Source: Nesterenkonia massiliensis (lineage in GTDB: Bacteria; Actinomycetota; Actinomycetes; Actinomycetales; Micrococcaceae). From it: a stretch of 64,000 bases of DNA. Positions within the stretch are counted from its first letter, which is position 1, and each line of letters starts with the position of its first letter. Both the position numbers and the translations under genes were made by a program. The DNA is taken from positions 52,636 to 116,635 of the forward strand of contig NZ_HG005166.1 in NCBI RefSeq assembly GCF_000455245.1, in the 5' to 3' direction. Below, one piece after another: positions 24,698 to 29,625 of the stretch. Below the pieces are notes generated by a model. The model did not search any database, was not told where the DNA came from, and saw only the letters and a list, made by a program, of their open reading frames with translations.

Positions 24698-25507
24698 ATG
24701 GCTCTGACAACGCGACAGCGGAGACGGCTCAGCCTGGGTGTCCAGGCGGCCGTCTTCGTGCTTGCCCTGGTGCTGCTCTGGTTCATGGTGGACTGGACGG
24801 CGATCCAGCGCAGCTTCTTCAACTTCGAGAACATCGGCCCGATGTTCCCCGGCATCATCACCGTGGGGCTGTGGAACACCGTGCAGTACACCGCGGTGGG
24901 ATTCATCTTCGGTCTTCTGGGTGGCACGGTCCTGGCGCTGATGCGCCTGGCCAGCTTCCCGATCTACCGTTGGATCGCTACCGCTTATGTGGAGTTCTTC
25001 CGCGGCATCCCGGCGATCCTGGTGTTCATCGCACTGGGGTTCGGCGCCTCACTGGCCTTTGGGTGGAACCTCTCCACACTCCAGATTGCAGGCACTGCAC
25101 TGGCGATCGTCTCCAGCGCCTACATCGCGGAGACCCTGCGAGCCGGGCTGCAGGCGGTGCCCAAGGGGCAGGTGGAGGCCGCCCGGGCCCTGGGCATGCC
25201 GGCTTGGCGGGCGATGGTCAGCATTCAGATCCCGCAGGCTTTCCGCATTGTGATGCCGCCGTTGACCAACGAGGCGATCCTGCTGACCAAGGACTCCTCG
25301 CTAATCTTTGTAGTGGGCATGGCCGGATCCGCCGCTGAGCTGACCAAGATGGGCCGGGACGGCATCAACATGTATCAGGCAGGCCTGACACCGCTGGTGG
25401 TGGCAGGCGTGTGCTACCTGCTCATCACGGTGCCGCTGTCGCTGCTGGCCCGCCGGCTGGAAGACCGCAGCTCCAGCCGAGTGAGCAGGAAGAAGGCCAA
25501 AGCATGA
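24698..25507 (+). CDS. Amino acid ABC transporter permease (HisM/GlnP family)
   Basis: Protein of 269 residues. One N-terminal helix ([19 protein letters not shown]) is followed by a periplasmic stretch and the conserved BPD_transp_1 core with about five helices. The EAA loop reads [29 protein letters not shown], the contact to the ATPase. The motif [16 protein letters not shown] is typical of polar amino acid permeases. A single permease gene suggests a homodimer. Starts 5 bp after the binding-protein stop and overlaps the ATPase start by ATGA. Confidence 0.9.
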
Positions 25508-26289
25508 CCCAGAACACCCCCAACTCAGCGGTAGAAACTGCGGCGGCCGCCGCAGTGAGCATCACAGACCTGCATAAGTCCTACGGGGAGAATGAGGTGC
25601 TCAAAGGTATCAGCATCGACATCGCCCCCGGTGAGGTGGTGTGCCTGATCGGTGCCTCAGGCTCCGGTAAATCCACACTGCTGCGCTGCGTGAACCGCCT
25701 GGAGGACCCGAATGCGGGAACCATCACGGTGGGCGACTACGAAGCCACGGACCCGGATGTGAACCTGGATGCGATGCGCCGAGAAATCGGCATGGTCTTC
25801 CAGCAGTTCAATCTCTTCCCGCACCTGTCGGTGCTGGAGAACTGCACCATCACCCCGCGTCGGGTGCTGAAGCAGTCCCAGGCTGATGCTGAGGCCGAGG
25901 CGCTCAAGCAGCTGGACAAGGTGGGTCTGAAGCATCTGGCCGACCGGCGTCCCGAGCAGCTCTCCGGAGGCCAGCAGCAGCGTGTGGCCATCGCGCGTGC
26001 GCTGACCATGAAGCCGAAACTCATGCTCTTCGATGAGCCCACCTCGGCGCTGGATCCTGAGACCGTCGGTGATGTGCTGGCCATTATGCGCCAGCTCGCC
26101 CAGGCCGGCATGACGATGCTGGTGGTCACCCATGAGATGGGCTTCGCCCGGGAAGTCGCAGACCGCGTGGTCTTCATGGACCAGGGCGTCGTCGTCGAAG
26201 AAGGTCCCGCTGCTGAAGTAATCGGCAACCCCAGTCAGCCGCGAACCCAGGACTTCCTGCGCCGCGTGCTGAACCCGCTCTCTGACTAG
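25504..26289 (+). CDS. Amino acid ABC transporter ATP-binding protein
   Basis: Protein of 261 residues of the GlnQ/HisP type. Walker [10 protein letters not shown] (about 54-62), Q-loop [19 protein letters not shown], signature [15 protein letters not shown], Walker [15 protein letters not shown] and the switch histidine in [15 protein letters not shown]. An Ala-rich N-terminal stretch ([11 protein letters not shown]) precedes the domain. It energises uptake by the preceding permease. The ATG overlaps the permease stop (ATGA), so the three genes form one operon. A strong hairpin lies downstream, between this gene and convergent metI. Confidence 0.93.
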
Positions 26290-26443: not shown

Positions 26444-27121
26444 CTAGCGGCGCATGACTTTGCGGGCTGCGCGGTTGCCCACAAGCTGCAGTCCCTGGAC
26501 CATCACAACGATGACGATCACCGCCAACCAGGTGACCTCCGGACGGAATCGCTGGTAGCCCTCCACAATGGCGAAGTTTCCAAGACCGCCGCCGCCAATG
26601 ACACCGGCCAGAGCTGACATATCGATCAGAGCGATGATCACGAACGTGTAGCCCAGAACCAGCGGCCCGAGTCCTTCAGGCAGGATCACGGTAAAGATGA
26701 TGCGCGTGCGGGAGGCCCCCATGGCGCGTGCGGCCTCGATAACGCCCGGGTCGATGGACACGAGGTTCTGTTCCACCACACGGGCGATGGCGAATGTCGA
26801 GGCCCACACCATGACATGGATGACCGCAGTATTGCCGATTCCGGTGCCCACCACCTGCAGGGTGAGCGGTTGAATGGCTGCGAGCAGAATGATGAAGGGA
26901 ATGGGCCGGATGGTGTTCACCACGAAGTTCACCGTGGCGAATACCGGCTTATTCGCCAGGATATTGCCCTCACGGGTGGTGTAGAGCAGCAGGCCAAGCG
27001 CCAGCCCGATGCCCCCGCTGATAGCAAAGGCCATGACCACCATGTAGATGGTCTCTTGGGTGGCTTCCCACAGTTCTGGCAGGTAATACGACCAGTCAAG
27101 ATTCTGGAAACGCTCGATCAC
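26444..27121 (-). CDS. metI: Methionine ABC transporter permease
   Basis: Protein of 225 residues with five transmembrane helices. The BPD_transp_1 core includes the EAA loop EAARAMGASRTRIIFTVILPEGLGPLVLG and the MetI-specific segments NTIRPIPFIILLAAIQPLT and MSALAGVIGGGGLGNFAIVEGYQRF. It forms the membrane channel of MetNIQ, importing D/L-methionine. GTG start at 27121 overlaps the metN stop (GTGA), so it is translationally coupled. Third gene of the metQ-metN-metI unit. Confidence 0.94.
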   Translation of the reverse strand: MIERFQNLDWSYYLPELWEATQETIYMVVMAFAISGGIGLALGLLLYTTREGNILANKPVFATVNFVVNTIRPIPFIILLAAIQPLTLQVVGTGIGNTAVIHVMVWASTFAIARVVEQNLVSIDPGVIEAARAMGASRTRIIFTVILPEGLGPLVLGYTFVIIALIDMSALAGVIGGGGLGNFAIVEGYQRFRPEVTWLAVIVIVVMVQGLQLVGNRAARKVMRR

Positions 27122-28215
27122 CGTGCTGCCTCCTCTCCGGTCGCGCCAGTGCTGATCTCCTGGACATCACCAGCGCTGCGAAGTTCGGCAAGGAAACCGG
27201 CGACGGCGGCGTCGTCGCCTTCAACAGAGATGGTCAGCAGACCGAAGGCAGCGTTCTTCGTGGTGTTCATGCCGCCGTGCACGATCTCAAAGCTGACACC
27301 TAATGCTGCCGCACGGCCCAGAACTGCTCCCACTGCGGCAGAATTGCGCAGCGAGACGGTGATGAGCCTTCCGGAAGTGCTCTTGCGGATGCGGGCCAGG
27401 TCGGCGTCGGTGGGCCTGTCCTTCAGGGCCGAACCGACAAAGCTGGCTTCTGCGCCGCTGCGCGGGTTGGAGAACACATCGTAAACAGGGCCCTCTTCCA
27501 CGATCCGGCCCTTGTCCATGACCGCCACACGGTCAGCGATGGCTCGGATGACCTCCATCTCATGGGTGATGGCCACGATAGTGATCCCGAGTTCCTCGTT
27601 GGCCCGGCGCAGCAGCCGCAGTACCTCCTCGGTGGTGGAGGGGTCCAAGGCCGAGGTGGACTCATCAGCCAGCAGGATGTCTGGCTTAGCAGCCAGCGCG
27701 CGGGCGATTCCCACCCGCTGTTTCTGTCCGCCCGAGAGCTGCTCAGGGTAGGCCTTGGCTTTATCCGCCAGGCCTACGAACTCCAGCAGCTCTGCAACGC
27801 GGGCCTCGCGTTCGTCTTTCTTCCAACCGGCGACCTTCAGCGGATAGGCCACATTGCCGGCCACGGTGCGGGAGGTGAACAGGTTGAACTGCTGGAAGAC
27901 CATGCCGATGCGCGAGCGTACGTGCCGCAGCTTGGACTCCGGCATGCCGGAGATCTGCTGACCCAGCACGGTGATGGTCCCGGAGGTGGGTTTCTCCAAA
28001 CCATTGACGAGCCGGATCAGAGTGGACTTGCCCGCTCCTGAGAAGCCGATGACGCCATAGACCTCCCCGCGGTTCACGGTGAAGGAGACGTCGTCGACGG
28101 CGGTGACTGAAGATGACTTGCCGGTGGTGAAGGTCCTCGTCACATTGCTGAAACGGATCAGCGGACCTCCACCAGCAGCGAGCGCAGCGGTGCTTTCTGT
28201 GCTCGGAGTGCTCAC
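27118..28215 (-). CDS. metN: Methionine ABC transporter ATP-binding protein
   Basis: Protein of 365 residues. ATPase domain: Walker A GFSGAGKST (about 56-64), Q-loop [18 protein letters not shown], signature LSGGQKQRVGIARAL, Walker B ILLADESTSALDPS and switch THEMEV. Residues about 275-355 form the NIL domain (LITVSLRNSAAVGAVLGRAAALGVSFEIVHGG; FGLLTISVEGDDAAVAGFLAELRSAG), which in MetN binds methionine and inhibits transport when the cell is replete. GTG start at 28215, 45 bp after metQ. The Shine-Dalgarno is weak. Confidence 0.95.
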   Translation of the reverse strand: MSTPSTESTAALAAGGGPLIRFSNVTRTFTTGKSSSVTAVDDVSFTVNRGEVYGVIGFSGAGKSTLIRLVNGLEKPTSGTITVLGQQISGMPESKLRHVRSRIGMVFQQFNLFTSRTVAGNVAYPLKVAGWKKDEREARVAELLEFVGLADKAKAYPEQLSGGQKQRVGIARALAAKPDILLADESTSALDPSTTEEVLRLLRRANEELGITIVAITHEMEVIRAIADRVAVMDKGRIVEEGPVYDVFSNPRSGAEASFVGSALKDRPTDADLARIRKSTSGRLITVSLRNSAAVGAVLGRAAALGVSFEIVHGGMNTTKNAAFGLLTISVEGDDAAVAGFLAELRSAGDVQEISTGATGEEAAR

Positions 28216-28260: not shown

Positions 28261-29154
28261 TTACTCGGCCTGACGCAGGGCTTCCTGGTAATCGGCCAGG
28301 GCCTCCTGCAGTTCCTCCGCGGTCACATCGCTGGCGGGAACCGAGGTGCCTGCAGAGCGCTCCTCAATGATGTCCAGCACCCGCTGGTCGTGATAGAGCG
28401 CAGCGATCTCGCGCAGAGCCTCATTGTCTACATCGGCTTCGCGGGCAACGAAGGCGTTGACGTAGGGGAAGGCGCTCGGGTCGTTCGGATCGTCGGCGAA
28501 GAGGCCATCCTCCTTCGGATCAAGATCTGCGTCCTGGGCGAAGTTGTTGTTGATCACAGCGCCTTGTACTGACTGCAGCGCGTTGACGGTCTGGGCGGCG
28601 TCGAGGGCCTGGACGCTGACAGTCGACGCTGCTTCATCAATGTGGCGTGGCTCGGGCTGTGCAGTCTCCTCAGCCAGTTCAAGCAGTCCTGCCGCCACCA
28701 ACACGTTGATGGCGCGGCCCTGGTTCACCGGATCGTTGGGGATGGCTACGGTGTCGCCGTCCTGGAAATCGCTGACATCGGAGTACTCGTTGGAGTACAG
28801 GGTCAGCGGCACAATCTCGGTGGCGCCGATGGGCTGCAGGTTATCCCCGGAGCTGTTGTTGTGCTCAGCGAGGAAGGCGATGTGCTGGAACCAGTTGACA
28901 TCGATGTCGCCGTTGGACAGAGCGGGATTCGGCTGGTTGTAGTCGGTGAAGTTGACCAGCTCGATCTCGTAGCCCAACTCCTCCTCAGCAATCTCCTCCA
29001 GCTGCCGGTGGCCTTCGTGCAGGTTGGCCACACCAATCCGGAAAGAGGTCTGATCCTCCGGAATGGCTTCAGCGTCTCCGTTGCCGCCGCAGGCGGTCAG
29101 GCCGAGCAGGGCGGTGGCGGCCAGGGCCGCGGTCAGGCGCTTTGGTGCAAACAT
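28261..29154 (-). CDS. metQ: Methionine-binding lipoprotein
   Basis: Protein of 297 residues of the NlpA/MetQ family. A lipoprotein signal peptide ends in LTAC (Cys22), then an acidic linker. Family motifs: FRIGVANLHEGHRQLEEIAEEELGYEIELVNFTDYNQPNPALSNGDIDVNWFQHIAFL, IPNDPVNQGRAINVLVAAGLL and FPYVNAFVAREADVDN. It captures methionine for MetNI. TGAGGAGA precedes the ATG. The gene has a 350-nt leader with a SAM-riboswitch-like fold. Gene order metQ-metN-metI has metQ first, the reverse of E. coli. Confidence 0.94.
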   Translation of the reverse strand: MFAPKRLTAALAATALLGLTACGGNGDAEAIPEDQTSFRIGVANLHEGHRQLEEIAEEELGYEIELVNFTDYNQPNPALSNGDIDVNWFQHIAFLAEHNNSSGDNLQPIGATEIVPLTLYSNEYSDVSDFQDGDTVAIPNDPVNQGRAINVLVAAGLLELAEETAQPEPRHIDEAASTVSVQALDAAQTVNALQSVQGAVINNNFAQDADLDPKEDGLFADDPNDPSAFPYVNAFVAREADVDNEALREIAALYHDQRVLDIIEERSAGTSVPASDVTAEELQEALADYQEALRQAE

Positions 29155-29423
29155 GGGTGTCTCCTCAATGATTTCTGCGGGGATAGGTGTGCCGCAGTGG
29201 ACTGTAGGTGAGATGAGAATGACGACGACGGGCCCGCGTCACAGGCAACGGCGTGCCCGATTGTGGGCACAACGCTTCAGGCCCTGTTGGGGGCCAGCCG
29301 ATGGAGGGTGGCGCTGATTAGCGCACGGACATTCGACACATCTTTTGAGAGTGTCCCTTCTTGAGTCTGCTCTTGCCCGTTCCGGGCATGGTGACGGTTG
29401 GTGAAGCCGTCTGAAACGGGCCG
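29155..29423 (-). other. Rest of the long metQ 5' leader
   Basis: 269 nt without a gene, between the riboswitch-like fold and the metQ start. It holds a possible anti-P1 stem (GAAG...CCGT/ACGG...CTTC, 29428-29404) and hairpins TGCCC/GGGCA, GCGCT/AGCGC, GGCCC/GGGCC and GTGCCC/GGGCAC. No clear rho-independent terminator is seen, so the expression platform is not obvious. Confidence 0.45.
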
Positions 29424-29505
29424 CTTCTTAATCCGGTGCCACCCAGGAACATGGGGTTGGCGAGCGGCCCGATTCCGGATCGTGAGGGCCGCCTCTCGCG
29501 AAGCA
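29424..29505 (-). promoter_or_regulatory. SAM-I/SAM-IV-like riboswitch variant in the metQ leader (candidate)
   Basis: The minus strand has the complete SAM-I/IV topology. P1: GCTTC (29505-29501) with GAAGC (29428-29424). P2: GCGGCCC (29493-29487) with GGGCCGC (29471-29465). P2-loop ATCCGG (29481-29476) with downstream CCGGAT (29437-29432), a perfect 6-bp pseudoknot. P3: AACCC with GGGTG (29445-29441). The joints GCGAGAG, CGCCAACCC and TAAGAAGC sit where the family has CGAGAG, GGCAACC and the 3' P1 strand. The core differs from consensus (GCCAACC for GCAACC, GGTGGCA for GGTGCTA). TACAGT at 29520-29515 is a plausible -10 element. P1's 3' strand can also pair with GCTTC about 17 nt later, a possible anti-P1 stem. 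Methionine-transport context supports SAM sensing (inference). Confidence 0.6.
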
Positions 29506-29625
29506 CTCCCCATACTGTAGCGGTTCCGCGGAGCAAAAGCAGATGTCAGGTGTCACAAAGTGTCACAGTATGTTCAAAATAGGTAGTGATACTTCCGCAG
29601 GCCTTCCCGTGCTGACCGCTGCGCT

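Follow-up and report, generated by a model that had tools for sequence, protein, structure and literature searches.

Genes and features of the metQ locus

The window (here, the whole 64,000-nucleotide stretch of Nesterenkonia massiliensis DNA that was analysed) carries the genes of a methionine importer on its minus strand, preceded by a leader RNA. The features are given below in the direction of transcription, each with its coordinates, strand and basis.

29514–29519, minus: -10-like hexamer TACAGT of a predicted promoter, 9 nt before P1 (conserved TANNNT)
29364–29504, minus: complete SAM-IV-type aptamer, micrococcaceal subtype (RF00634 match and subtype model R1)
29500–29504, minus: P1 5′ strand GCUUC, with U6, U7 and C8 (sequence and pair counts)
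29495–29499, minus: J1/2 GCGAG, G11 and A12 kept (sequence and conservation)
29488–29493, minus: P2a 5′ strand (sequence and covariation)
29475–29481, minus: PK1 5′ strand GAUCCGG in the P2 loop (motif check of homologues)
29462–29468, minus: P2a 3′ strand (sequence and covariation)
29454–29461, minus: P3 5′ strand GCCAACCC, with C43, C44, A45 and A46 (sequence, covariation and conservation)
29447–29451, minus: PK2 5′ strand UGUUC in the P3 loop (motif check of homologues)
29438–29444, minus: P3 3′ strand GGGUGGC, with U57, G58 and G59 (sequence, covariation and conservation)
29430–29436, minus: PK1 3′ strand CCGGAUU (motif check of homologues)
29423–29427, minus: P1 3′ strand GAAGC, with A87 and A88 (sequence and pair counts)
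29375–29421, minus: P5 hairpin (RF00634 match and covariation)
29413–29421 with 29375–29383, minus: P5 arms, 9 bp (sequence)
29393–29411, minus: additional hairpin inside the enlarged P5 loop (sequence)
29368–29372, minus: PK2 3′ strand GAGCA (RF00634 match and motif check of homologues)
29354–29360, minus: Shine-Dalgarno-like purine run GAAGGGA after PK2 (sequence and homologues)
28261–29154, minus: metQ, methionine-binding lipoprotein, the regulated gene (Pfam Lipoprotein_9, E 9.9e-65; hits to the NCBIfam MetQ models fall short of the curated cut-offs)
27118–28215, minus: metN, ATPase with NIL domain (family profile matches)
26444–27121, minus: metI, permease (NCBIfam MetI, E 1.3e-41, below its cut-off)

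A gene read as an amino-acid-type ABC ATPase (25411–26289, plus strand) ends near metI. At related loci (L052–L054, L056 and L038) a similar ATPase gene instead has its end immediately upstream of the metQ leader.

Assignment of the aptamer to SAM-IV

A cmscan search (Rfam 15) of the whole 64-kb window returned RF00634 (SAM-IV) at 29503–29364 on the minus strand, scoring 53.7 bits (cut-off 38) at an E-value of 1.1e-6 and covering the full model length (1–116). The preliminary description had proposed a SAM-riboswitch-like element, possibly a drifted SAM-IV, with P1, P2, P3 and a P2-loop pseudoknot upstream of a methionine importer, and had suggested the Rfam search. The search retained RF00634, and the helices, the pseudoknot and the position ahead of metQ, metN and metI are all borne out on the minus strand. 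P1 is formed by GCUUC and GAAGC (29504–29500 paired with 29427–29423), and PK1 has 6 Watson-Crick pairs (AUCCGG/CCGGAU), or 7 counting one G-U. That reading stopped at 29424 and for this reason overlooked P5 (29421–29375, 9 bp), which it had stated to be lacking, together with the PK2 tail; the 3′ end of the aptamer is at 29364. The P5 loop is enlarged to 27 nt, versus 4 in the RF00634 model, and PK2 pairs UGUUC (29451–29447) with GAGCA (29372–29368).

In comparison to the other SAM riboswitches, the P1/P3 core around the ligand resembles that of SAM-I; according to PMC6890682, however, SAM-I has P4 and is without P5 and PK2, both of which are found in the metQ leader. The related core of SAM-I/IV (SAM-I-IV-variant) is described in the same source as having P4 and no PK1. 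The presence of PK1 in the metQ leader argues against a SAM-I-IV-variant assignment, which the preliminary description had entertained, as does the retention of RF00634 by cmscan, which keeps only the best match of a clan and hides the scores of its other members here. With SAM-IV (RF00634) the element shares P1, P2, P3, P5, PK1, PK2, the contact residues and an association with methionine and sulfur genes. It differs in having C43-G59 for G43-C59, U6-A88 in most members, a near-constant P1 (GCUUC/GAAGC), a short P3 and a near-constant PK2 (UGUUC/GAGCA). P5, and often P2, is enlarged in Nesterenkonia and Micrococcus, where many members score below the Rfam cut-off or are missed.

Three other RF00634 matches in the same genome score 112.8, 93.1 and 84.1, so that the metQ-leader copy is the lowest of four; the match of 93.1 bits is a canonical SAM-IV aptamer in the same window (1201–1091). 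A covariance model built from subtype leaders (hereafter, R1) gives 130.3 bits at the metQ leader, which is itself part of R1. In view of its E-value, its full model length and the covariation in homologues described below, the aptamer is more than a chance match.

Paired exchanges beside the ligand pocket

Core positions are given in SAM-I numbering, and A45, A46 and U57 are residues that we take to contact the ligand. For the roles of G11, C44, G58, U7 and U88, as for the list of conserved positions, we rely on SAM-I work (PMC3764141, PMC6914780). The base of P3 reads G42 G43 C44 AA ... U57 G58 C59 C60 in canonical RNAs and G42 C43 C44 AA ... U57 G58 G59 C60 in the metQ leader. The two deviant core words noted earlier, CGCCAACC and GGTGGCA, are both present. 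Since the P3 pair 43-59 is C-G where the canonical pair is G-C, they represent opposite strands of a single compensated swap; the deviation thus stands, but not the altered ligand core that had been read from it, as the contact residues are unchanged. A second swap had escaped that reading: the P1 pair 6-88 is U-A, where canonical RNAs have mostly G-C and sometimes A-U. G11, A12, C44-G58, A45, A46, U57 and U7-A87 are intact. The metQ leader therefore departs from SAM-IV at G43-C59 (here C43-G59) and at the pyrimidine in position 88 (here A88), both of which are consensus features with no proven requirement.

G43-C59 and a pyrimidine at 88 are found in all 57 canonical RNAs that could be parsed (30 of 32 best matches in Nesterenkonia and 27 of 29 class-wide loci). 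A further 18 RF00634 places were examined, with low scorers deliberately included and exceptions read by eye. Outside the subtype, C43-G59 occurs together with a P1 of GGUC/GACC at L313, and U6-A88 together with G43-C59 at L311, so that each swap exists without the other; A43 faces C59 at L308, and L305 has C6-G88. L313 (G395:C1:516374-516268) is a SAM-IV-like RNA from another family of the order, with a canonical P1.

The subtype was examined in 118 rows, which include repeated sequences and comprise 34 covariance-model matches (A2) and 84 loci found by a P3 pattern among the matches listed (A3). The ligand-contact residues are kept in every row. Pair 43-59 is likewise C-G in 118/118, by construction in the 84 A3 rows, which were selected by the P3 pattern; the A2 rows and 15 reread genomes (see below) were picked without that pattern, with the caveat that subtype RNAs made up the training set of R1. 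P1 is GCUUC/GAAGC in 104 rows, GCAUC/GAUGC in 7 and of other sequence, always with U6-A88, in 7. Both swaps occur together in 111 of the 118 rows, and A6-U88 in the remaining seven. Given the spread of R1 matches described below, the deviation in the metQ leader is a trait of the subtype and not local drift. At L321 and L322 (G152, G191), U-U replaces A45-A46, which makes these RNAs candidates for lost or altered binding.

Covariation and distribution of the subtype

A metQ search matched 239 of 295 genomes of the family, paralogues counted in. The same leader motif recurs at 21 of the 22 top-ranking metQ loci (L051–L072; L055 is the exception), and the next eight (L073–L080), which belong to other genera, have a canonical SAM-IV of 84–95 bits before metQ. 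When 18 of these loci (L052–L069, including L055) were scanned with Rfam at E-values up to 1, seven matched and three reached the cut-off.

Over 16 aligned leaders, the proposed structure has 93.1% of its cells paired, versus 36–45% in slid controls. Two-sided changes number 36, against 14.2 ± 3.0 after shuffling, with none of 500 shuffles as high. Two further counts are not clearly above the shuffled level, namely pairs changed on both sides (10; 39/500 shuffles as high) and further pair types (27; 112/500 shuffles as high). PK1 appeared only 65.6% paired in this alignment because MAFFT had shifted its columns, and it was therefore re-examined by motif: at least 5 pairs are formed in 115 of 116 distinct subtype RNAs. 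By the same check, 113 of the 116 form PK2 with 4 pairs or more, and its pairs are of several types (UGUUC/GAGCA, UGUUC/GAACA, UGCUC/GAGCA and CGCUC/GAGCA). The covariation test proposed in the preliminary description thus comes out in favour of the element, with helices and pseudoknots covarying in homologous leaders.

Of 395 Micrococcaceae genomes, 243 have an R1 match, spread over 19 of 32 genera. Across a sample of the whole order, R1 matches 21 of 396 genomes, every one of them Micrococcaceae. In a collection scan with the P3 motif, 78 of 80 loci among the matches listed also match R1; no R1 match was found at L167 and L169, two Bacteroidetes MAG loci, despite the P3 motif. Because canonical RNAs reach up to 45.7 bits with R1 (31 other loci), the 15 weakest family genomes were reread. 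All have a CUUC/GAAG P1 and C43-G59, and the idea that the R1 matches are canonical RNAs was rejected on this basis; in two of the 15, U-U takes the place of A45-A46, and L327 is a partial match. All 14 subtype RNAs taken from other genera pass the Rfam SAM-IV cut-off (51.8–85.6 bits), which indicates that Rfam misses mainly the leaders of Nesterenkonia and Micrococcus. A search by title and start of abstract returned no paper describing the subtype among the matches listed, many subscription papers being outside reach.

Genes downstream of canonical and subtype RNAs

The canonical RNAs of the same genome lie before an O-acetylhomoserine sulfhydrylase above the TIGR01326 cut-off (L001), a luciferase-like monooxygenase (L002, 1201–1091) and another Cys_Met_Meta_PP enzyme (L003). 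Elsewhere in Nesterenkonia, canonical RNAs precede an SBP_bac_5 protein (L043) and a luciferase-like monooxygenase (L045); that of L034 precedes a methylenetetrahydrofolate-reductase-like protein. Subtype RNAs are found before metQ, metN, Cys_Met_Meta_PP enzymes (L116 and L130; MetY), SBP_bac_5 (L191), a luciferase-like monooxygenase (L152) and, at L128, a methionine-synthase-like protein with a weak NCBIfam match. Four Pfam families (Lipoprotein_9, Cys_Met_Meta_PP, SBP_bac_5 and Bac_luciferase) therefore stand behind both kinds of RNA, with 46%, 30% and 44% identity in example protein pairs.

Among the matches listed, 84 subtype RNAs are in named genomes, and 56 of these precede either a small protein (33) or a PIN module (23). 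By gene class, as assigned through clustering with most members not family-scanned, these matches divide into small protein 33, PIN 22, short partner only 1, metQ 10, SBP5 6, metY 4, metN 2, luciferase-like monooxygenase 1 and unassigned 5. Downstream genes were picked by their G+C content at codon positions, a filter that does not work in the G+C-poorer Rothia loci; such loci account for three of the five unassigned cases.

The PIN protein is homologous to FitB (2h1c_A, E 7.8e-16), and the Pfam PIN family was matched in 7 of 13. In Rothia and others the subtype RNA is followed by a short ORF together with a PIN-domain gene of FitB-like type (L188:3630-3779(-), L160:469-624(+)); the PIN-module loci lie within the set L131–L210. 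Back-to-back subtype RNAs, with a PIN module on one side and a protein of about 100 amino acids on the other, occur at the divergent loci L115, L127, L129, L134, L148, L157, L161, L165 and L166; at L166 alone, the retrieved sequence breaks off shortly behind the short partner ORF. The protein of about 100 amino acids also lies close behind the subtype RNA at L112, L120, L124, L181 and others, and has a VLPAVDL..GTV.. / W / F signature. A Pfam match was found in 0 of 17. The structural model (pLDDT 81.5) predicts a beta-rich domain, for which a fold search returned nothing below E 0.001 and no convincing PDB match.

Ligand of the subtype

SAM is most likely the ligand of the subtype, since the same protein families lie downstream of both forms of the RNA and since the contact residues are intact and the swaps occur singly. 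Moreover, the positions that vary in spermidine-sensing SAM-I variants are unchanged: these variants are described as changed in J1/2 and the P3 internal loop (PMC10853860). They resemble the subtype in their narrow spread and unusual gene partners, and differ from it at these very positions.

It is conceivable, although improbable, that C43-G59 and U6-A88 retune the pocket to SAH, methionine or a non-sulfur metabolite, with the odd gene partners reflecting another signal. On this account, for which the odds appear equally low, the subtype would be a riboswitch class of its own, its ligand changed or loosened, that has been recruited to the PIN module, the small protein and methionine import. 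The swaps do flank the pocket, and they co-occur in most subtype rows versus the uniform G43-C59 and pyrimidine 88 of the parsed canonical RNAs. In SAM-I, U88 directs its O4 toward the sulfonium (PMC6914780), and the prevalence of A at position 88 in the subtype counts against SAM, as do the 56 of 84 named RNAs, among the matches listed, that precede genes outside known methionine and cysteine metabolism. The spermidine-sensing SAM-I variants (PMC10853860) are a precedent for a changed ligand. Set against this, all direct contact residues are kept, either swap is found alone in RNAs outside the subtype, seven subtype rows have A6-U88, and the same protein families lie behind canonical and subtype RNAs. 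The suggestion in the preliminary description of a new specificity, for methionine or SAH, thus finds no support and is improbable.

That the metQ-leader copy is a decayed, non-functional SAM-IV relic seems very unlikely. Its RF00634 score is the lowest in the genome, and the constraint-free MFE fold of the single sequence differs from the aptamer (-56.3 versus -49.7 kcal/mol for the aptamer fold without pseudoknots; z -1.69, with 10 of 200 shuffles folding equally well), single-sequence folding being weak evidence. However, all helices and both pseudoknots can form, the core is conserved across the subtype and the -10 element is kept. Low Rfam scores are also common to close relatives of the metQ leader, which score equally low against the canonical profile.

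Predicted promoter and possible expression platform

Of 121 distinct upstream regions, 116 have a TANNNT hexamer 5–14 nt before P1, 75 of them at 7 nt; in either of two control windows the count is 8 of 121. As this -10 hexamer is conserved at a fixed distance, the transcript very probably begins at P1, with a start predicted at about 29506–29508 by the usual spacing from a -10 element; this speaks against the start downstream of 29424 that the preliminary description had named as a refutation. A stricter scan found no sigma-70 consensus site. No terminator-like site was found by a consensus scan of 29100–29620.

The start codon of metQ lies 210 nt beyond the aptamer, and metQ leaders have about 200 nt between the two. 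Among 117 subtype RNAs (three of the 120 surveyed had no recognisable tail), a Shine-Dalgarno-like run lies at most 24 nt after PK2 in 111, and in 55 a start codon follows the run by 2–13 nt and opens an ORF of at least 40 codons. Where the run and a start codon adjoin PK2, as is often so in other genera, control of ribosome binding is likely, to judge by this arrangement. The run is retained in metQ leaders, though most of those printed have no start codon in reach: one lies 2–13 nt past it in 1 of 15. The window has its next AUG at 29341, 12 nt past the run, and this opens 7 codons only. A leader ORF from this AUG was rejected as a general platform, as the printed Micrococcus leaders have no start codon there; an AUG in similar context (GAUG-YGN-CGAAUG) occurs in the close relatives L053 and L056, and such an ORF may exist in the sublineage of the window.

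A 9-bp helix between the P2a 3′ strand and the P1 3′/P5 5′ region, which is part of the MFE structure in the window, was considered and rejected (38 of 116, swapped control 40.5 ± 2.8). Hardly credible is the anti-P1 switch of the preliminary description, a GAAG...CTTC stem between P1 and the P5 loop acting as expression platform: the GAAGC/GCUUC complementarity is present here (29427–29423 with 29407–29403), yet GCUUC occurs in only 9 of 118 subtype P5 loops and 2 of 16 aligned metQ leaders (A1), and the competing P2a helix likewise does not exceed its swapped control.

Proposed mechanism and significance

The favoured interpretation is that the metQ leader contains a riboswitch of the SAM-IV family, belonging to a subtype known to date from Micrococcaceae only, which lowers metQNI expression when SAM is plentiful; we put its probability at about 83%. 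The transcript would start at P1, as the conserved -10 element suggests, and SAM would be bound between P1 and P3, held by the unchanged contact residues as in the structures of SAM-I and SAM-IV. Binding is expected to stabilise P1 together with PK1 (P2 loop/J3-1) and PK2 (P3 loop/3′ tail). The two exchanges, C43-G59 in P3, which is fixed in the subtype, and U-A at 6-88, seen in the window and most members, are compensated pairs beside the pocket. From the precedent of SAM riboswitches and the nature of the gene, the bound state would lower metQNI, so that methionine import would stop at plentiful SAM. In other genera, with a Shine-Dalgarno sequence and start codon often directly after PK2, a block of ribosome binding is the most likely output.

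Several implications follow. Many of the Nesterenkonia and Micrococcus metQ leaders escape the Rfam SAM-IV profile, and a SAM-type riboswitch is linked to a PIN-domain module and an uncharacterised small protein. Should the subtype prove to be a class of its own, the sulfonium charge, for example, would perhaps no longer be required. The subtype amounts to a natural double mutant of the SAM-IV pocket that can be put to the test, with its swaps also found singly and the same target families behind it. Whether SAH is still rejected by the subtype would gauge the share of the 6-88 pair in sulfonium recognition.
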